Shown here: positions 4,711-16,486 of the stretch, piece after piece
Position numbering within the stretch: the stretch's first letter is position 1
Layout: every line of letters begins with the position of its first letter
NCBI GenBank assembly: GCA_023078555.1
Contig: CM041198.1
Location: forward strand, 8,665,836 to 8,729,835
Length of the DNA stretch: 64,000 nucleotides
Reading direction: 5' to 3'
From: Ulva prolifera
Taxonomy: Eukaryota; Chlorophyta; Ulvophyceae; Ulvales; Ulvaceae
Position numbers and translations under genes: made by a program
The notes under the pieces: model-generated
What the model saw: only the letters and a program-made list of their open reading frames with translations
The model's database searches: none
What the model was told of the DNA's origin: nothing

Positions 4711-5571
4711 GATGAAACACCTATTCACAAACTAGTTGAACAGGAGGTGATGTTATCCCTAGCCAGCTGGGTGAGAACGGATGGACTTGATGACAGGAGT
4801 AGCCTGGGTCGCGACTGCGGTCGCACAAGTTTCGATCTTCGTAAAGGGATCATGCTACATGGCACTTTCTGGTAGCTGTTGCAACATTGGTGTTCCGCCA
4901 ACGGCGATGCAGTCTCGAACAGGGCGAAAGCCAGTTCCCAGGTCGGGTGAAGCTTCGCGCCAAGACGAATGCAGATGCATTGGAATGACTCTCGAAGATG
5001 CATGGGCTACTTCTCGCGGCTGCATTCCAATGTTCCCGCTGACCACGGAATTCAGGATTTCCTGGCGCAATAATGCCAAATATTCTCACATTAGCTGGAT
5101 CACCTGGAATATACCGATGTGGGTTGGTTCGGCTTTGACAGCCCTGTCCTGGCATACCTGGTATGTTGGCCTCGCGCTTTGCAAAGCTTCACGCTTGCAG
5201 CAAGAAAGATCGTGACGAGAGATGAAACCTGAGCAATCGTGTTTGTCGTTATCTATTACGAGTGCACATCGGATCGCAAAGTGGAGGCGTACTTCCGTCG
5301 CGTGTCACTCTGTTTAAGCGTCTGGCGTGTCTTCGCTTTCGACTAGCCAGCATTAGATTTGAATGGCAGCAGCATTGGCCCTGGCACTTTGTTGTTAGGC
5401 TCAATAGGCACGCTGCGTATGTCTGCGCCATACGCGCGTGATGCTTGTCTTGACAGGCGAGAGGTCAAGTGGCCTGCAGCGATGATACCTCTCGCTTCTG
5501 CGCCAGTTTAAGGAGAAATAATATCGGAATCAAGTTTATAGAACTTGACTGGCTCTGTATACGCCATTTTG
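4711..5571. other. Unresolved stretch, possible exons on either strand
   Basis: A plus frame runs open from 4781 to 5215, and a minus frame reads NPHRYIPGDPANVRIFGIIA near 5150-5050. Another plus frame (DHLEYTDVGWFGFDSPVLAYL, 5094-5159) ends at a good GTATGT donor. None of the three could be joined into a convincing model, and I recognise no domain. The right end should hold the 5' UTR and promoter of the chromatin gene that starts at 5572. Confidence 0.25.
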
Positions 5572-8500
5572 ATGGCGCCTAAGAAGAAAGGGTCTTCGCC
5601 CATGGCGGTGGCACTAACTGTAGTGGAAAAGCTGATGCAGCAGCCTCTGGCAATTCAGCTTTTCAATACGCCGGTAGACATTGAAGCTCTTCCTGACTAC
5701 CGCGACGTTGTCAAGGAGCCCATGGATCTGGGGACCATTCGCTCTCGTCTCGCTGCCGGTCAGAGCAAGAACGATTCCAAAATCGCCTACTCTTCGCCCG
5801 CAGAAGTGCTGGAGGACATCAAGCTGGTGTGGAACAATTGCATTCTCTATAATTCGCGGCCAGATGAGGAGCAGATCGCGCAAGCGGCTCGTGAGATGGC
5901 TCAGAAGACGGAACAGCTGTGGGGCGCGGCTGGTCTCGGGGGGAATCCTCGCTCATCGCTTGTTACACAGCCATCCGCTCCCGTCGCGGAAGAAGACATA
6001 CCTACGACATATGATGCACGAGGTGGTGTTTCTGCGATTGCCTTCGCCATATTAAAAATCAGTGTGACTCAGCTTTCAAACCCGAATTCGTACTTGTGCG
6101 TGCCTAGAGATTCTGCACCGTGCAGGACCATCTGATGTTCCAGTTCGAGTGATTCAAGACCTGATTGTGTATGGTGAAGACCGTGGTGTCGTGAGAATGT
6201 GGACTTTGGACTGTCAGTTGAATGCCTTGGGCGCTTTGCCAAGCTCATCAACATCGACAGTACCTGCCACACTTTTCGGTCGTGGTACATTGAAGGCTCA
6301 GAATTCTATGGACAGCTCCGACAATCCGGCCTCAAGTGCGTTCAATAAGCAGCCCCATGTCTGTGCGAGCTTACAATGTACCAATGGGACCCAGCCAGCA
6401 GTGAGCCTGGTCCTTGCACACTGCATGCATCGCAGCGAAGTTTGATGGAACATGCAGGTATAGAAGTCGAAATCGGACCGATTCTAGATTGGTCAGTGAC
6501 TGTTGAGGCCGAGGCACAGGTCTGTGTGCAGACAGGCATGGGGTGGTATCGTGTAGCTGGTGCAGCGCAGGAGTATGAACCGCTGTTCTTCCTGCCCCTT
6601 CTATTTGCACGGCTGTGCAAATATGTCATCAAGTCCATACAAGAGATGCCCGCGGTCGAACTGAATGGCCTGCTCGTGCTCGTCTGCAAGTACCTCTTGC
6701 AGACACAAGCGAAGGAGAGCCTGCTATTTCACATCAAGGTGTGCATCCTGACAAGCCCTGACCAGCACATCAGAAGCTCCTCTGGGAGCGCGACCATTCC
6801 ATATCTCTGCCACTGATGTACAGGCATGTGAAGCCCAATGCTGGTGGGGCGTGTGACATAACCTCTCCACTGCCACCGCCCCCGTTACATTCTTCTGCAT
6901 CAATGTTGCTGCATGACATCAAGTCGCTTTTGACTCCTGACAGTGCAGTGGCTCCCGTATGCTGCACTGTCATTGCGCATCGCTGCATCTGCCCGCAATC
7001 TCGCAGCACATCAGCAGCCTCTTGCAGGCACAATTCCACATACCTGCATCACGACGAGCCAAGAATGTGTGACTCGGCTGTATCACGGTCATTCCACAGC
7101 AGCATTAAAGCACAGCTGCATAACAGTGCAGCCTCGATGCGCTGCGGTGTACGCGTCTCCTGCAGCTTGCGTGAGTGAGGGCCGCCCAGTCGACTGCACA
7201 GGCACCTCTGATCATATTCAGCTCTGCCTGCAGCTCTGCCTCCCCCAACTCCGCACCTTCCTTACCGCCTGGGCAGAGTCCCAAGACGTCGCGATGGCCG
7301 CGGCCCTCGGCTCCACAGCCGCCCCGGGCGAGCAGAAGCTCGCCCCCGCAGACACAATCAAGTCCGCACGTCGCCTTGCGGATGAGCTGCGGGAGCTGCA
7401 GGCCGACAATGTGGATGCCCGCCTGAAGAATATCGCCCGCGTCTTCGGGCAGCTGCGGCAGCATTGCAGCAGCGGCGGGCCGGATGGGGACGGCAAGGGC
7501 GCCACGGCGGAAGAGGACTTCATCGCCGCGATGACTGCCGAGCCGGAGCCCCTCTCGCTGGAGGCTGCGCTACTCGCGGGGTCCGACAGCGGCACCGACA
7601 CGGAGAAGCGCCGCGCGCATCTGGAGAGCAAGCGCGTGTACGAGGCGGAGCGTCGGCGACGCAAGGCCGCGGAGGAGGACCTCGCACGCTCCGCGGCGGA
7701 GGCTGCGGCCGCGGCCGCGCGCGGCGCGCCGCCGCCGCTACGCGGCGGCTGGCGCACGCCGGCGGCGCTGCTGCCAAACCTCCTCTCGGTCTGGGACTTC
7801 CTTGGCACCTTTGCGGACCAGCTGTGGCTGCCGCCGATCCCGCTCGCGCGGCTCGATGCGGCGCTGTCGCCGGACGCGGAGGCGCCGGTAGCAGCGGACG
7901 AGGCGGCGGCGATCGTGCTGCGGGACGTGCACTGCGCGTTCCTGCGTGTGCTGGAGGGCCGGGCGGGCAAGGGCGCGCAGCCCCCGAGCATCCCAGTGCT
8001 GCGCTCCGGCCGCACCAACGTCATCCCCTGCGTCGGAGACCACCACTGGCAGGCGCGCATCCCCACGCCTGTCGTCGTGTGAATCTCAAGTCTCGCCGGC
8101 AGCTGCATGCGTGTGGCTGCTGGGCACCGTGCCATGCGTGGCTGCTGGTAGGCTGGCACATGCTCTCGCACCCGCGCGTCGGGCGCATCAGCCAGCACGG
8201 CATGCACCACGAGGTGCCTGCGTCGGCGTCTGCACAAGTGTTTTCGACCGGCATCGCCGTGCCATGCTTGCACGGTGCTTCAAACATCTCCGGGGCGGCT
8301 GCAGGTGCGGCTGGCAAAGATCCTCGAGGGGCGCTCGTACGACGCGGCCATCGCCGGCGAGCGGCACGCGGCGGAGGCGCTCGAGGAGCTGCGCGCCGGC
8401 GACTACCTCAGCCTCTCGCTGCTCCACCGCTTCGCCATCCTCAACGTCTGCCTCACCATTGCGCTCGGCGGCGAGCTCCTGCGGTGCGGCCCCGCCCCCG

Positions 8501-11500
8501 CGCATGTGCACCAGAACAACCTTTGCATGAGCTCGGATTGTCATACGGTAGAGCACCAAAGCTTACTTCCAGGCGTTGCAATCAGAAGCAGCGCGTGTGG
8601 ACGAGGCACACAATCTGCAGCGTTGTTCGAGATGCCATCCAGTAGTTAGACCTAGAAACTTGAAATTGTTCCATGCGATTGGGCCCGACAATGCAACATT
8701 GGCTGCAATGCGGATTTCAAGTTTGGCGGGGTCTTGTGTGTAGGACGGAGATTGGGTATCGCGTGGAGGACTTCCACGCGATCCGCCTGCTGGAGCGTGG
8801 CGTTGCCGCCAACGCCGCGCCGAAGAATGGTGAACCCAAGGCCAAGGGCGGCAAGGGCCGCAAGGGCTCCAAGGCGGCTGCACCCGCGGCCGCGGGCGAG
8901 CCCGCCGCGCAGCTCAACGGCAGCCGGACGGCCCGGAACAGCGGCTCCGGCGCCCCGGCGACGCCGGCGACCGGCACCGGCAGCCGATCCGATGCAGACG
9001 GCGGGAAGACAGACGCCGCGGACGATGACAGCATGACGGAGGATGGAGGCTCGGGCGGGGGCCAGCGGGACGGAGGGGCTGGCGGGGGAGATGAGGAAGA
9101 GGAGGGGGGGGGAGAGGACGCGAGTGCGGAGGACGCGGCTGCCGCAGAGGGCATGCGTGAGTGGTGGCACTTCATGTACCATTCGCGTGTGGGCCTGCGG
9201 CGGTTTCTCGGCATGGACTCGCTAGGGCGGAAGTACTGGCTGATGGCGGGTCGCGCGGGCGCGTACCAGGTGCGGCTGCTTCACGCACTGTGGTTCAAGC
9301 TGCAATGCGGTTCATGCTGCAATGCGGTTCATGCTGCAATGCAAGGTCTGGTCGCCGGCACTCGATGATTTTAGTTTTGCTGTCGCGCGGGGCAAGGGGC
9401 TCAGGGCAGGCTGACATAGGGACGGAGGTGTGCGTGCGCGGTGTGAGCTGCCTGCGGCATTCCAGCATGCACGCACCGGCGGTGCCCTGGAGCACAGGCG
9501 TGATTCATGCTGGCAGCGCTGATGTGATGCCTGAACTCCGGGCATACCTGCGTCGCCCCCAGAAGCCTGATCGGCAATGTAGCAGCTGCCGTGCAGGTGG
9601 TGGTCGAGACGAATCCTCAGCTGCCAGACCCGGTGTCTGGCGAGCCGACGCGGGGCGTCAGCTCATCAGCAGAGCCCCTCTCCTGGGGCATCTACATCCC
9701 CTCAGACATCTTCAAGCTCATCTGCTGGCTGCGCGCCGGTGGCATGGCGCAGGAGGAGCCCCTGCTTTCGGCGCTGGAGCGCGCCCCGCTGCCGCAACCG
9801 GAACTGGGCATGCCGGTGTCCGCGGCATCGTGGCGCGACGTGCCGGTGTCCGCCGCCGCGACAGATAAAGACGGTGTACTGCCAGATGGCTACAAGGGCG
9901 TCCTCGCGCCGGCGCTGCCGGGCGCGCTGATCCAGCCGTTCACGCTGCCGAGGGAGGAGCCCCCGGCGACGACGCAGGCGCGGCGTGCTCTGCACGCTGC
10001 GGCGACCACGCTGCGGTTCTGGGCGCACGGCCACGCCGACGCGGAGCCCCCGGCGCGCGCCGCACTGCTGCAGCTGCTGCTGCAGCTGCACGGCAACACC
10101 CTGCAGCCATCGTCGGCGCCGCGGCTCGGCGCTCCCGGCGTGCCGCCGCTGCCGTCCGCGACCACAGAAGCGCTGCGGCGAGACACGATGGCCGTTGCAG
10201 AGGCGCTCTCGGCCGCCGACGCGATGGCGCCGGAGTGGCAGGAGCGGCGGCGGAACTGGACCGAGAAGCTCGCAGGGGCCACGTCGACGCGGGAGATCGT
10301 CGCGCTCATCAGCCTCCTGTGCCTGAACATCGCGTGGCGCCGCGACCCGCGCGTGATGCACCGCGGCTCGTTCCACAGCTTCACCGCGACGCAGCACATC
10401 CCGCTCCACTTCCCCGTCCCCGGCGACCGCGTCGCGATCCTGCGCTCCGGGCTTCTCGCGAACGTGCAGCGCATCCGCGACATGGTGCAGATGCCGACAC
10501 GATGGGCCAGCCGCGACGGTGGCGGCGCGCCGCGCGCCGCAGCCGCCGCCGACGGCGACTCCAAGGCGGAGCCGAAAGCGGAGGTCAAGGCCGACCCCGA
10601 CGCGGATATGGATGCGACCGACGGGCCACAAGCTGAGGGTGCCGGGCTGCTACAGCACAGCGGGGCGGTGAGCAACGGCACGGCTCCCGCGAAGGTGCTG
10701 GCGGACCTCCCGCCGGTGCCGCCGCCGACGGCGAAGCAGGAGGCGTGGCTGACCGACGTGGCAGAGGTGGAGCGCGTGGCGCGCATGCTGAAGCCGGTGG
10801 AGATGATGTCGGTGGCTGCGGTGGCGTACGCGCCGGCGGACCTCCCCGACGCGTTGCAGCAGTGCGGCCCCTCTGCCTCGAGACGGGGCGCCTTGCGCTG
10901 CCGACCGTGTCTGATTGACCCCCGTGCGGGGGGAGATCGGTTTCTGCGATTCTGTTTGATCTTGCTGCTGGTGCTGGTGTTGGAACCTCGGCATGACGGC
11001 GGTGCGTATCGTGTTGACATGAGCAGATATGTGGCGGGGGTGCCCACAAACCCCGCCCCGCCTGAGTTCTCCAACTGCTGTCATGTGGGGCGCACTGCCG
11101 CCTGGCGTGGCATGCTGCAGCTTTGCGGAAGTGTCTGGGCACGTACGTAGGCGCACAGCGCGGGTCTCTGCGTCCGGACTCAGAGCATCCGAGAGCACGC
11201 AGTGGTGCCCCACAGCTCCGGAGCTGCAGCGCCCAGGGGTGCGTCCGTGCTGCAGGGCCGGCTGGACGTGCTCGTACCGGCCGCCCACCGCGTGGCTGCT
11301 GCTGCGGCGCGACGCGCCCTCCGGCGAGCGCGAGCGGCCGCCCCTCGTGCTGCCCGTGCACGCCGACGCCGCCCTCTCGGACTACGTCGTGCCGAAGGCC
11401 TCCTTCGAGCGCGGCCTCGCGACGCGCTGGCAGGCCGGGGACCGCTTCCGCATGCAGTTCGGCGGGCGCAAGGGCAGCTGGTACCGGGGGACGGTCGTGA

Positions 11501-13316
11501 CGGTGCGCGGGCCGCTGAGCGGCGCGATGGCGGACCCCTGGGAGGCGCTCGCGGTGAAATGGGAGGACGGCGGCAGCTCGGCGATGCCGCGGGTGTCCCC
11601 CTGGGAGGTGGAGCTCGACCCCAACAGCATCGAGGTGCGGGGCCACATCTAATGCATGTTGTCGGCCACGGCGCCGTCCTGCCGTCACGAGGGCTCTCTC
11701 CACCCATCGTGTACCTTGGCCTGCGAATATGGTGCCAGGCATACCGCTTACAGTACTGCTGCGACGGTGGGTCATGGTTGCTGCGGCGGGTGCAGGCCAA
11801 GGTCGCGGAGCAGCGGTCGCGGCTGCAGAAGGAGTGCCGGCGGGCGCGCACATCGAAGCGCACCGCCGAGGGGGGTGCGCCCGACGCTGAGCCCGAGCTG
11901 CAGCGCATGCGGTCCGACACGCTGTCTGGCTCCCTGCCGGGCGCGGCGCCCCGCGACCCCGCCGCGTTGTCGACGACCGGCGAGTCCCGCCCCCGCAGCA
12001 CGCGCGCCGCGGCGGCCGCCGCCAGCCGCGGCGGCCGCTCCGTCTCCCTGGAGGACCTCCCGGAGCTGCTGCCGTCGACGCTGCTGCTGCCGTCGAGCCG
12101 CTGGCACAACCACCCGATCGCGGCGGACCTGCTCGCTAAGGTACCGGACGGGGACCCATTCCAGCACATGATCGCGAACTTCCACCACGGCCGTGGTAAC
12201 ACGCGGTTCAGGGTGCCGCAGTTCAACGGCGGGCCGCTGGACCTGAGCGCGCTCTTCGCGGAGGTCCTCGAGCGCGGCGGCGGTATCTCGGTGACGCAGT
12301 CAAAGTCATGGAAGGACGTGGTGCGCGCCTGTTGCCACGTTCCTCGTTTTGCCTGCATAGTGTGCTGAGTTGAAGTTGTGGCGATCTGTTCCTTTCGGAC
12401 ATACGTGCTGTAGCATCCTTGAACTTGAAATTACTTTGATTTGGTTCAAGCTGCTGTTGGACCGGCAGAAAGTCGAATATCGATGATTGGCGTGGCGGGG
12501 ACCCACGTTGCCTAGCTGGCGGGGATCGTGGTGTTCGATGAGGGCTGTGGCGCCGTGCGGGCCTGGAGGCTGACGGGGGCCAGAGCGGTGCAGGTGAGGG
12601 TGATGGGGCTCGACGCGAACAGCGGCGTCACGACGACGAACCTGCGCTCCGCGTACGATAAGTCACTGCGCTGCTTCGAGCTGTACATGCGCAGCGGCGC
12701 CTTTGCGCGCGACGCCGCCGCCGACCAGCTGCCGCCCCAGGCACAGACGTTCTCCCGGCAGGACCTCGCACGCTTCTGGCAGGGCTCCGGCGTCCCGGAG
12801 TACGCCACCTTTGTCGCGTATGACTACCTCGCCGCCGCCGCTGCCGCCACGCCGGCTGCGCCGGCAGCGCCGGCTGCCGCCGCCGCTGCCCCAGCGGCCA
12901 TGAAGGCGAAAGCGCAGCTGGCGCAGCCGGCTGCGCCGCCGCGAGCCGCCGCCAACGGCGCCGCGGCGGCGCCGGCGGCGCCGACTGCGGTGTCTGCGCC
13001 GGTTGCGATGCCGCAGCTGAAGCTGGCGCCCCAGGGGCCGGACCCGACGCCGCCGTCGCAGGACGCGGCCGCACTTGTTGGGCGGGAGCTGTGGCGCAAG
13101 TGGGAGGGCCGTGGGTACTACAAGGCGACGGTCGCGACGTACGACAAGGAGAGTGAGATGTTCACGGTGGTATACCACCGAGGCACGGCACAGCAGATGG
13201 AGGAGCGCATGAATCTGTTCAATGCTCCCGTGGAGCTCTCCTGGAGAGATCCAAACCACCTTGTGCGGGCAGGCGCCGCGCAGGGTGCGGGTGGCCGCAT
13301 GCCCGGGAGGGCATGA
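5572..13316 (+). CDS. Multi-reader chromatin protein: bromodomain-RFD-DDT/WHIM-cryptic Tudor-ARID-Tudor
   Basis: Eleven exons: 5572-6022, 6126-6335, 6458-6738, 6774-6827, 7222-8052, 8305-8483, 8744-9269, 9597-10861, 11256-11634, 11796-12320, 12594-13316. Phases agree throughout; total 1807 residues. Domains: bromodomain about 16-118 with the acetyl-lysine Asn in LYN (N94); replication-foci domain (DNMT1-RFD type) about 155-300 (VPVRVIQDLIVYG; LDWSVTVEAEAQVCVQTGMG; WYRV; EYEPLF); charged coiled coil about 430-500; DDT about 510-640 (LLSVWDFLGTFADQLWLPPI); WHIM motifs near 640-690 and 820-900 (LRRFLGMDSLGRKYWLM); BRWD/PHIP-like cryptic Tudor about 1328-1392 (ending RVSPWEVEL); ARID about 1494-1610 (GGPLDLSALFAEVLERGGG); second Tudor-like domain about 1727-1785. 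No enzyme domain is seen. A nuclear scaffold reading acetylation, methylation and DNA is inferred. Weak joints: the 35-base intron 6739-6773, the start of exon 5, and the GC donor at 8053. Confidence 0.8.
9296..9345. repeat. Intronic 17-bp tandem repeat
   Basis: Within intron 7 of the chromatin gene, a unit close to CTGCAATGCGGTTCATG occurs about three times in tandem. It has no coding role in the model. A single diverged copy of CTGCAATGCGG also lies in the preceding intron near 8703. Confidence 0.7.
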
Positions 13317-14373
13317 GAGCGGCCTGCCGTGCTGATGTTTGTGTATGAACCGTCCTCCCACGGCGAGGGGACGTGTGTGCGCTGGCTGATGGCGGCCATG
13401 GCGCGTGCTTGCCGTGACATCTGCCGCGGTGGCGCGCAAGGCGTGGGCACTGCGGCACACGTATGCAGGTGCCGGGCAGGCGAGCCCTGTTGAGCACGCG
13501 CAGCGCGCTGTGTGCAGGCAGCTGCTGTGTGTGCACGTGGATGCCGCTTCTCGCTGCTTGATCGCATGCGTTTGTGTGTAGGCAGGTTCTGGGGCAGCGG
13601 CCGTGTGCTGGGAGGTGGCGTGGGTGGAGCCCTGCCCCGGGTGTAAGGTTGCCGGATGTCTGTGTTTTTTTGTGGTGTATGGGTGCTTGTGCTGTGTGGT
13701 TGTGTACTCACCAGCGACGGCGGTGGGTGCTCTTCGCCGCGTTCTGTCACAGGGCAGCGGACTGAACAATGAGGATTTTTGCGCATCTGCTTCGATCGCA
13801 CCGTGGTGCAAAGAATCGGCGATCTGGAGGGCCTCTGTGCTCTGCTCCGGCATGGCGCCTCCATCAAGCAAGTGGCTGGCTCGCCATTGCTCGAGGTTCG
13901 ACACTGCATTCTGCAAAGTCGAGACGTGCTGGCTGCGTGATGCAGAATAGTTTGTAGAACAGGCACGGTGCATGCATCCAGGGGTGAGTTCCTGTGTCTT
14001 AGGGGCAGCTGTGAGTGAGTGTGAGCAAGGACCTACGTGCCTGGGTTATTGTACAATCTGTATGCACAGCCACAAAGGGACCACGGGTCCGGCACTGACC
14101 ATTCTCACCCTGCACGGCTTCGCCTCGCACTCAGTGCAAAGACCAGGTGCAACAGGCAACGCAGGCCATATCCAACGTACGGAAATCTGCATGTATGACT
14201 GACAAGGCCGCAAACATGTACACCCAGGCATCAGGCACCACAACCATGCGCAGCGCATGACCCTGTGAATCTTCACAGATAACCATGGCGCGTATGGTGG
14301 TGGCCCTCAACGCTGGACCTCGCAGTCTTGTTGTGGATCAACTCTGATTTAACCCGCAGCCGGACGTCGCATG
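13317..14373. other. Convergent 3' spacer
   Basis: This spacer separates two convergent genes, so it should hold both 3' UTRs. Only short frames without domain similarity are present. Several GCATGC motifs and G/T-rich runs occur around 13550-13700. I see no tRNA, no long inverted repeat and no transposon ends. Confidence 0.4.
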
Positions 14374-16486
14374 TCACACCCCTCGGTACCAGATTTTCAC
14401 ATAATTAAACCCGAGCTCCTCCTCTGCACCCTGCCCAGCAGGCTGCACATGCACCTTGTCGTATGCATCCAGAGCCCATTCCATGAACTCTCTGCCAATC
14501 TGCAGCAAGTACTTCCCCCGAGGCGGGAGCTGCAGTGTGGCGCGGATCCAAGCCGACTCCCTCACCTCCCCCAACGCCGTCAGCGTCACCTTCCGCGTGC
14601 CAGGCATCCTCTGCAGGCATTTCCCGACACACCGCAGCATGCCGGTGTCAAACGGCTTCAGCTGCAGCTCAAGCACCTCGAGGCACATGAGACTCTCCAG
14701 GCAGCCCCGCAGCCGCGACTCACACAACACGCTCTCGAGGCACAGCTCCCGCAGCCGTGTCAACCGCTGCAGCTGCGGAGCGATGGCCGCAGCGTTGAAG
14801 CTGCAGCACGAGCCGGTGCACGACAGGCTCGTCAGGTGCGTCAGTGCTGAGAGGGGCATCTGCAGCACGGCGGACTGCACCTCCAGCCACTCGGCGCTGT
14901 CCAGGTCGACATCTCCAAAGTGCACTCGCAGCTCCTGCAGCGCTGCCAGGGTTCCGAGGGGCCGCAGGATGCGCACCGGTGGCTCCCCGACGGTGGCATC
15001 ATGCATGATCGCATTCGACACGGCCAGATGCAGCTGTGTCAGCGCGGGCAGCCGGGCAAACGCAGCGGCCGCGGCGGCAACGGCAGCCTTGGACAGCTGC
15101 GCCGACGGCCCAAACTGGACCGACAGCTGCTGCAGATGTGTCAGCGCGCAGCAGCGTCGGTGCAGCACTGCAGCGGTGCGTGTGTCGGGGTGGGGCAGAG
15201 CCACGTGGGCGTTCTGCAGCACCGGCTGGCGCGGGAGCGCCTCAGCCACAACAGCGCTCGGCCGCAGATCCGCGCCCCCGCCGCAGCGGAAGCTCAGGCG
15301 CACGTCAGCGACGGCAGCGGGCTGATGCACGGCGGCAATGCATCGGGCGCCGCCGGCCGCACGGTGGGGCGGTGCCCGACTGCCGCCGCGCAAACGCTCA
15401 GACGCGGGAGGCGCAGAAATGGGCCGTTGACGTGGCTGAAGGGCCATGGCTCACAAGACTGAGGCCGGTCGGCACAAGACAGTGTCAGCTCGGTGAGGCT
15501 GGGGGCTGTGGAGAGCACAACGATGCCAGTGTCGAACGGGGCGGCGGGGGAGGGGAGGGAGAGCCTCGCGCGCTTTGCACCGGCGCCGCCCGGTCCCGGC
15601 TGGATCGCGCTATCGGAGGGGGCTGTGGGGTGGCCGCCGCGGTCACGTTGGTGCAGGCTGAAGCTGGCAAGGCTGTGTCAAGCCGCGATGCTGTCGGCGA
15701 GAGCGTGGGCGGTGCGGGCGATCGCAGCGGCGGGGGCTTGGGCGATGCCGAGGTCAAGGCTGGTGAGGTGTGAGAGGCAGCGGAGGGTGGGGCAGAGGGC
15801 TGTGGCGGGGTTGGCGGCGGCTGCGGGAGGAGCAGGTGTGAGGCTGGCAAGCATGATGGTGGAGAGGGAGGTGGCGTGGTGCAGCAGCACGTGGGAGAGG
15901 AGCGTGGCGTAACCGAGCGTGGCGATGGGCGTGTGGAGGTAGAGGCTGTGTAGGCCACCAGGTGGCGCAGAGCGAGCGGGCCAGGTGGGTCAAGATGGTT
16001 TGGTGGTGTGACGCGCCTTGAGAGGGGCCAATAGGCACACTGCCTAGCAGTTTGCCATGGGGGCAATGCCCAATCATGTCGGTGCCATTGGCGACAACGG
16101 CGTCGAAGTAGATCTGCACGTTGACGGGGGGTGTGAGCGCAAGTCCGTGGTGGTGACGCAGGACGGTGGGGAGGGTGTGGGCCTGGCACCTGTTGAAGTG
16201 CTAGTGACCAGGCCGCAAGCACAGTGTCGCCACTCGAGCTCAGCCTCTCGCAGACCAGCTGCTTCACATTGGAGATTAAAGACATGAGTGCAGCTTGCAT
16301 CTCATCGCTCTTCGTTTCGTCATTCCATTGCGTGTCATCGAGTCTGCGTGCCAAGGCGCCTGCGAAAGTTGGCATGTCCTCATCACCTAGGATGTCGCCG
16401 ACCTGCAGCGACGCAAAACGTGAGGAGAACGCTGTCTCACTAGCAAAGTCAGAGCGCAATGTCGGTGGTGCTGTGTTAGTGGCCAC
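14374..16486 (-). CDS. Leucine-rich-repeat protein (RNI type), exon structure partly resolved
   Basis: The 3' part is clear: from about 15150 to the stop at 14374 the minus strand encodes repeated LRR units such as LPALTQLHLAV, LAALQELRVHF, LTHLTSLSC, LTRLRELCLES and LMCLEVLELQL, followed by a non-repeat tail ending KIWYRGV. The 5' exon is 16486-16190 (TLRSDFASETAFSSRFASLQ, then DEDMPTFAGALARRLDD), ending at a CAG/GTGCCA donor. It opens at a GTG after ATTAG, so it may be preceded by another exon. Between them, 15890-15680 (LSHLTSLDLGIAQAP) and 15518-15294 (LSTAPSLTELTLSC) carry further LRR units, but frame changes there leave intron borders unsettled. It resembles the LRR gene at 33-37 kb and may be its paralogue. 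Function: probably protein binding. Confidence 0.7.

Follow-up and report, generated by a model that had tools for sequence, protein, structure and literature searches.

BAZ1A/ACF1, BAZ1B/WSTF and yeast Itc1 carry DDT, WHIM1 and WSD/WHIM2 domains in the same order, and in predicted models of the ISW2 and ACF complexes the DDT and WHIM1-3 elements of Itc1 and ACF1 contact or engulf the SLIDE domain of ISWI (PMC12093815). ISWI binding has been postulated as common to WHIM proteins, and WSTF, which pairs with SNF2H, associates with pericentromeric heterochromatin during replication (PMC8536118). In Arabidopsis, a single protein, MBD9, unites a bromodomain with DDT and WSD and interacts with ISWI remodellers (PMC10451976), and DDR1-3 contain zf-4CXXC_R1, DDT and WHIM1 (PMC10538959). 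The RFD of DNMT1, a module of another system, recognises ubiquitinated H3 and PAF15 and is also autoinhibitory (PMC8594673). Here, we analyse a gene of the ulvophycean alga Ulva prolifera, located on the forward strand at positions 5572-13316 of a 64,000-nucleotide stretch (assembly GCA_023078555.1, contig CM041198.1, positions 8,665,836 to 8,729,835; hereafter the window) in a genome searched as 88.9 Mb on 44 contigs. The predicted product carries a bromodomain, an RFD, a DDT-WHIM module, the ancillary domain (AD) known from PHIP/BRWD and auxin response factors (ARFs), an ARID and a C-terminal Tudor-like domain. With a probability of roughly 0.7, we propose that it is a non-catalytic targeting subunit of an ISWI remodeller, of a type belonging to core chlorophytes.

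The gene model comprises ten exons encoding 1785 residues. A first automatic model, which skipped the N-terminus of the RFD, was replaced by a listing of splice pairs that gave ten exons and 1819 residues; alignment to the protein P0001 (jgi/Ulvmu1, UM010_0088.1; 1814 residues) then changed two exon ends to give the present length. An earlier interpretation made from the letters alone (the sequence-only reading) had placed one chain here with the same start, stop and span, but with 11 exons and 1807 residues. P0001, whose label Ulvmu1 we read as Ulva mutabilis, aligns end to end with the window protein at 74% identity, and its precomputed Pfam set is the same. If P0001 guides the end of exon 4, intron 4 (8053-8304) has a GC-AG splice pair with the donor CAG/GCGCGC. 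The features are as follows, in window coordinates:

Exon 1, 5572-6022 (+): bromodomain at about 5617-5886, Asn94 of the YN motif kept (Pfam PF00439, E = 3.6e-19; aligned to the YN motif of BRD4)
Exon 2, 6126-6335 (+): N-terminal part of the DNMT1-type RFD (gene model; conserved in P0001 and relatives)
Exon 3, 6458-6738 (+): RFD core (PF12047 in frame; genome-search match at 6445-6687)
Exon 4, 7234-8052 (+): segment after the RFD core, charged linker, and DDT at 7774-7953 (PF02791; end set by the P0001 alignment)
Exon 5, 8305-8483 (+): WHIM1 region (aligned to WHIM1 of relatives; without a Pfam match in the window protein)
Exon 6, 8744-9269 (+): low-complexity acidic linker and putative start of WSD (WHIM2) (WSD E = 0.14; family alignment)
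Exon 7, 9597-10861 (+): remaining WSD and a conserved middle region (family alignment; no convincing PDB match)
Exon 8, 11256-11634 (+): Tudor-like ancillary domain (ARF_AD/BRWD_AD), profile match at 11419-11625 (PF06507, E = 5.3e-10; PDB matches to ARFs; genome match)
Exon 9, 11796-12320 (+): basic linker and first part of the ARID from about 12159 (PF01388)
Exon 10, 12594-13316 (+): end of the ARID, Ala-rich linker, Tudor-like domain at about 13074-13223, and stop (P0001 alignment; PF21743/PF09465; PDB 7de9, 6.8e-8)
Candidate poly(A) signal TGTAA, 13642-13646 (+): sole forward-strand TGTAA in 5401-14100

Relatives, which the sequence-only reading had proposed to seek in other green algae, number 19 (P0001-P0019); all of them are predicted proteins, and together with the window protein they form a 20-member family. 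They came from three protein searches that depend on exact five-residue words in common and in each of which only the 8000 candidates sharing most words were scored, so that the evidence covers the relatives found in this way. In a Pfam scan of the family (matches at E up to 5 for the window protein, entered as the 1819-residue model, and P0001-P0003, and at E up to 1 for the others), ARID was above the curated cut-off in 19 members, RFD in 16, WSD in 13, DDT in 12, WHIM1 in 10, the bromodomain and ARF_AD in eight each and BRWD_AD in none; at E up to 1, WSD and ARF_AD were each matched in 19 of 20, and the member remaining for the AD, P0014, matches BRWD_AD. Bromodomain, RFD, DDT, WSD, AD and ARID occur together in one chain in five of the 20 members (the window protein, P0001, P0006 from Nannochloris, P0014, and P0018 from Bryopsis), and the order of the matched domains is identical in all 20. 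The Scenedesmus protein P0002 has neither a bromodomain nor an RFD match, and P0013 has the bromodomain match without the RFD. P0010 (1237 residues), P0011 (1121 residues) and P0004 (without ARID) look incomplete, several members open with the RFD, perhaps through the choice of annotation start, and only the end of the bromodomain remains in the alignment of P0016. DDT is without a match in P0010, P0011, P0015, P0016 and P0017, and the region still aligns in P0015-P0017.

Taxonomic placement covered five of the ten members that bear an organism name: Ulva mutabilis and Bryopsis (Ulvophyceae), Micractinium tetrahymenae and Symbiochloris (Trebouxiophyceae), and Scenedesmus (Chlorophyceae). The architecture is therefore old, since the domain order is shared by all 20 members and those looked up span three core chlorophyte classes. 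A tree of the 20 proteins over 654 conserved columns gave full support to the Micractinium pair and to a Nannochloris-like group, gave the Ulva pair a long branch apart from Bryopsis, and left the positions of Bryopsis (64) and Scenedesmus (44) poorly supported. The sequence-only reading had suggested a new type of remodeller subunit; the combination of domains stands, but it belongs to a core chlorophyte family and is not special to the Ulva genome.

When the exons were scanned separately with Pfam, the bromodomain, RFD, DDT, ARF_AD and ARID, all proposed from the letters (the AD as a BRWD-like cryptic Tudor), each exceeded the curated cut-off. Bromodomains bind acetyl-lysine, and the Asn of the YN motif, identified by alignment to BRD4, is kept in all eight members with a Pfam bromodomain match. 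The RFD was matched at E = 5.8e-6. Of the 16 members in which the RFD is matched, 12 were aligned (all but the window protein, P0003, P0004 and P0009); the alignment had a mean column identity of 34% and four invariant columns (L, G, W and Y). Searched against the PDB, its profile matched 9peb and three other DNMT1 chains over two stretches each (6.2e-25) and the human DNMT1 construct 5wvo (3.6e-7), which we take to be a complex with ubiquitinated H3; all matches with E < 1e-4, 15 of the 17 listed, are named DNMT1, and the other two have E > 1. By sequence, the RFD of this family thus groups with those of DNMT1.

DDT was matched at E = 7.4e-7 (29.6 bits against a cut-off of 22). The WHIM part of the proposed DDT/WHIM module rests on the family: WSD is above the cut-off in 13 and WHIM1 in 10 of the 20 members at the corresponding alignment positions, which suggests that both follow DDT in the window protein. 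A PDB profile search with the conserved middle region of exon 7 gave no convincing solved relative; our guess is that this region, which follows WSD, corresponds to WHIM3.

In addition to ARF_AD, the ancillary domain matched BRWD_AD (E = 2.7e-6, below the curated cut-off), and a profile built from 13 of the 20 members matched ARFs in the PDB at 2e-7; at E up to 1, the PDB matches comprised only ARFs and one unrelated chain, with no PHIP chain among them. The ARID was matched at E = 9.8e-9. At the C-terminus, where the sequence-only reading had placed a second Tudor-like domain, the Pfam models for the PTM/DIR17 Tudor (9.1e-5) and the LBR Tudor (3.2e-4) stayed below their cut-offs on the separate exons, and the LBR Tudor reached 22.9 bits against a cut-off of 22 when a 76-residue piece was scanned alone. 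A Tudor-like block is present here in 16 of 20 members (not in P0002, P0004, P0012 and P0019). In a profile of 11 of these, the Pfam LBR and PTM/DIR17 models match three and two members, respectively (E up to 1), so that the Tudor assignment stands on the family profile, whose best PDB match is 7de9. That structure is Arabidopsis RDM15, a reader of H3K4me1 with a cage of Trp616, Tyr623 and Tyr641 together with Asp643 and Asp645, the two Asp residues contacting the monomethyl-lysine (PMC8184781). With numbering derived from the profile alignment, the positions of W616, Y623 and Y641 are aromatic in all 16 members with the block, whereas Asp occurs at neither position 643 nor 645 in any of them, which sets the family apart from the RDM15 type. 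Reading of methyl-lysine by the C-terminal Tudor is thus plausible, but a strict choice of the monomethyl state is not.

Each of the closest described systems shares a part of this set. The DDT, WHIM1 and WSD/WHIM2 order of the family is that of BAZ/ACF and Itc1, and ACF1 and WSTF, like the window protein, have a bromodomain; theirs, however, is C-terminal (PHD-bromodomain) whereas that of the window protein is N-terminal, neither WAC nor PHD has a Pfam match in the window protein, and the RFD, AD, ARID and Tudor are additions relative to BAZ/ACF/Itc1. MBD9 shares the bromodomain and DDT, with WSD weak in the window protein, but has an MBD, two PHD fingers and FYRN/FYRC, none of which has a Pfam match in the window protein, and RFD, AD and ARID are not listed for MBD9 in the available text (PMC10451976). 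DDR1-3, a further type from land plants, have DDT and WHIM1 and, as described there, none of the readers of the window protein (PMC10538959). PHIP/BRWD and ARFs have an AD of the same family (PF06507/PF25313), which in the window protein sits between WHIM and ARID, unlike in ARFs (B3 in DD, then AD) and PHIP/BRWD; Pfam matches to WD40 and B3 are absent from the window protein, and its bromodomain is N-terminal where PHIP/BRWD have theirs at the C-terminus, which sets it outside both groups. DNMT1/MET1 share the RFD, and BAH and DNA methylase domains have no Pfam match in the window protein. ARID4 proteins combine Tudor, ARID and a chromodomain with RBB1NT; the window protein shares the ARID and has no Pfam match to the chromodomain or RBB1NT. 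A chlorophyte protein described in 2018 has an AD flanked by an ARID, the only two domains named in the available text (PMC5873896), and, judged by that description, probably belongs to the present family. The claim that no described protein has this set accordingly holds for the whole: topic searches of the open-licence literature gave no description of it, with mention in closed papers possible. It does not hold for the parts, and what appears to be new is the whole reader set joined to an ISWI-docking module, AD with ARID being already known in a chlorophyte (PMC5873896) and bromodomain, DDT and WSD in MBD9 (PMC10451976).

Our proposal follows from these relationships, with ISWI binding and each ligand predicted from related families. 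As the sequence-only reading had already suggested, the most likely partner of the DDT/WHIM part is ISWI, because the DDT and WHIM elements of Itc1/ACF1 are predicted to engulf SLIDE. DDT, WHIM1 and WSD/WHIM2, with the region that follows, would form a cradle holding the SLIDE domain, and the AD of the PHIP/ARF type would act beside this cradle as a further nucleosome reader. The N-terminal bromodomain would read acetyl-lysine, the ARID would bind DNA and the C-terminal Tudor methyl-lysine, while the RFD would contribute a module that in DNMT1 serves ubiquitinated H3 or PAF15 at replication. The readers together may bring ISWI to nucleosomes with combined marks, where it would space nucleosomes. 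The least certain element is a link, made by the RFD, between the protein and both replication and the UHRF1/VIM-MET1 pathway.

Candidate partners were found elsewhere in the genome by searches made exon by exon, so that all counts are lower bounds. At least one SLIDE locus is present (C5:4630579, E = 5.4e-37), and the frames around it read, by eye, like a HAND-SANT-SLIDE region of a plant ISWI. One strand of C3 carries both two RFD exons (C3:9589928-9591859) and DNA methylase exons (C3:9584914-9586396); Arabidopsis MET proteins carry two RFDs (PMC8594673). Of three SRA loci, the one with exons at C10:994085-994763 is preceded by a frame that by eye resembles a RING finger, perhaps part of a VIM/UHRF1-like gene. 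The MET1-like RFD and methylase exons, together with SRA exons behind a RING-like frame, suggest that the RFD pathway is present. DDT and BRWD_AD each match only the window gene. The latter search scored two candidates, and genes combining WD40 with a bromodomain were not searched for; PHIP/BRWD may be absent. A further WSD match, at C4:7240439-7240981, falls within a frame of 753 residues and is itself interrupted by two TGA codons, possibly a read-through intron or a broken gene. Adjoining the window gene, a 358-residue frame on the reverse strand (14374-15450) resembles leucine-rich repeats by eye.

Since all relatives are predicted proteins, an error shared by several annotations is conceivable, and two or three adjacent genes (bromodomain-RFD, DDT-WHIM and AD-ARID-Tudor) could have been wrongly joined by splicing. 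The G+C content at third codon positions (GC3), calculated on the model before exon-end correction, is 0.44-0.62 in exons 1-3 and 0.82-0.99 in exons 4-10, the jump falling at intron 3 (495 bases), which would fit such a joining, and the RFD profile scores no better with exon 4 added (27.4 against 29.0 bits), so that this profile leaves the join of exons 3 and 4 unproven. The homologs do prove it: P0001 runs through both places where the sequence-only reading had feared a break (6.8-7.2 and 10.9-11.2 kb), with conserved junction residues (LLFHIK / LCLPQLRTFL), and bromodomain, RFD, DDT, WSD, AD and ARID also lie in one chain in P0006, P0014 and P0018. Because distant relatives also join the bromodomain and RFD to the rest, the jump in GC3 is better read as regional composition than as a gene border, and a split at this point was discarded on the P0001 alignment. 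The sole TGTAA, presumably the chlorophyte poly(A) signal, lies past the stop and lends weak support to one gene, as 1.6 to 2.6 copies are expected by chance on the forward strand of 5401-14100. These comparisons indicate that 5572-13316 encodes one continuous protein, and wrongly joined genes are highly improbable.

Several observations weigh against the assignment of this protein to ISWI or against a working RFD. DDT exceeds the cut-off in 12 of 20 members; in Pfam, the window protein has no WHIM1 match and a weak WSD (E = 0.14), with values of 0.061 and 0.027, respectively, in P0001. The genome search for WSD matched four other loci, the window gene not being among them, so that ISWI has other candidate partners and the idea that this is the only DDT/WHIM protein of the genome was dropped. 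In plants, SWR1 too includes the related MBD9, which bridges SWR1 and ISWI (PMC10451976), so that another remodeller is possible, and an ARID would suit SWI/SNF; that the protein serves one of these complexes or a free-standing reader scaffold is nevertheless unlikely, given that in ISW2, ACF and WSTF the part predicted to hold ISWI is DDT with WHIM motifs (PMC12093815, PMC8536118) and that MBD9 interacts with ISWI remodellers too. For the RFD, the question is closer to even. By identity to the window protein it ranks among the less conserved folded parts, there is no RFD match in four of 20 members, two of which (P0002 and P0013) are not short fragments, and the RFD of DNMT1 has its further autoinhibitory role; with the modest column identity noted above, it is only slightly less probable than its opposite that the domain has lost ubiquitin reading and persists as a structural element or a docking site for proteins. 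Its match above the cut-off in 16 members and the four invariant columns speak for retained reading. If the ISWI subunit we favour does read ubiquitin, a replication-coupled chlorophyte ISWI can be imagined, in which the RFD would read H3 or PAF15 ubiquitin placed by a UHRF1/VIM-like ligase behind the fork, the same signal would recruit both MET1 and nucleosome spacing, and the bromodomain, AD, ARID and Tudor would add checks of marks and DNA; this extension is doubtful, and we advance it tentatively.

To our knowledge, maintenance DNA methylation with its RFD and ISWI remodelling with its DDT-WHIM module have been known only from separate proteins, and the window protein joins both systems in one chain. 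Should its RFD work as a reader, both nucleosome spacing and CG methylation would respond to one ubiquitin signal; we know of no RFD reader function outside DNMT1-type enzymes, and this would be the first. A replication-coupled ISWI of this kind would represent a second, independent solution to the job done by WSTF-ISWI in animals. The family also provides a third home for the ancillary domain of ARF and PHIP: in the available text of PMC11685440, the architectures found are merged into ARF or PHIP and the chlorophyte and red algal AD sequences are called scattered, and the present family probably explains some of the chlorophyte ones. More generally, divergence among the subunits that target a single ATPase may have gone far in green algae.

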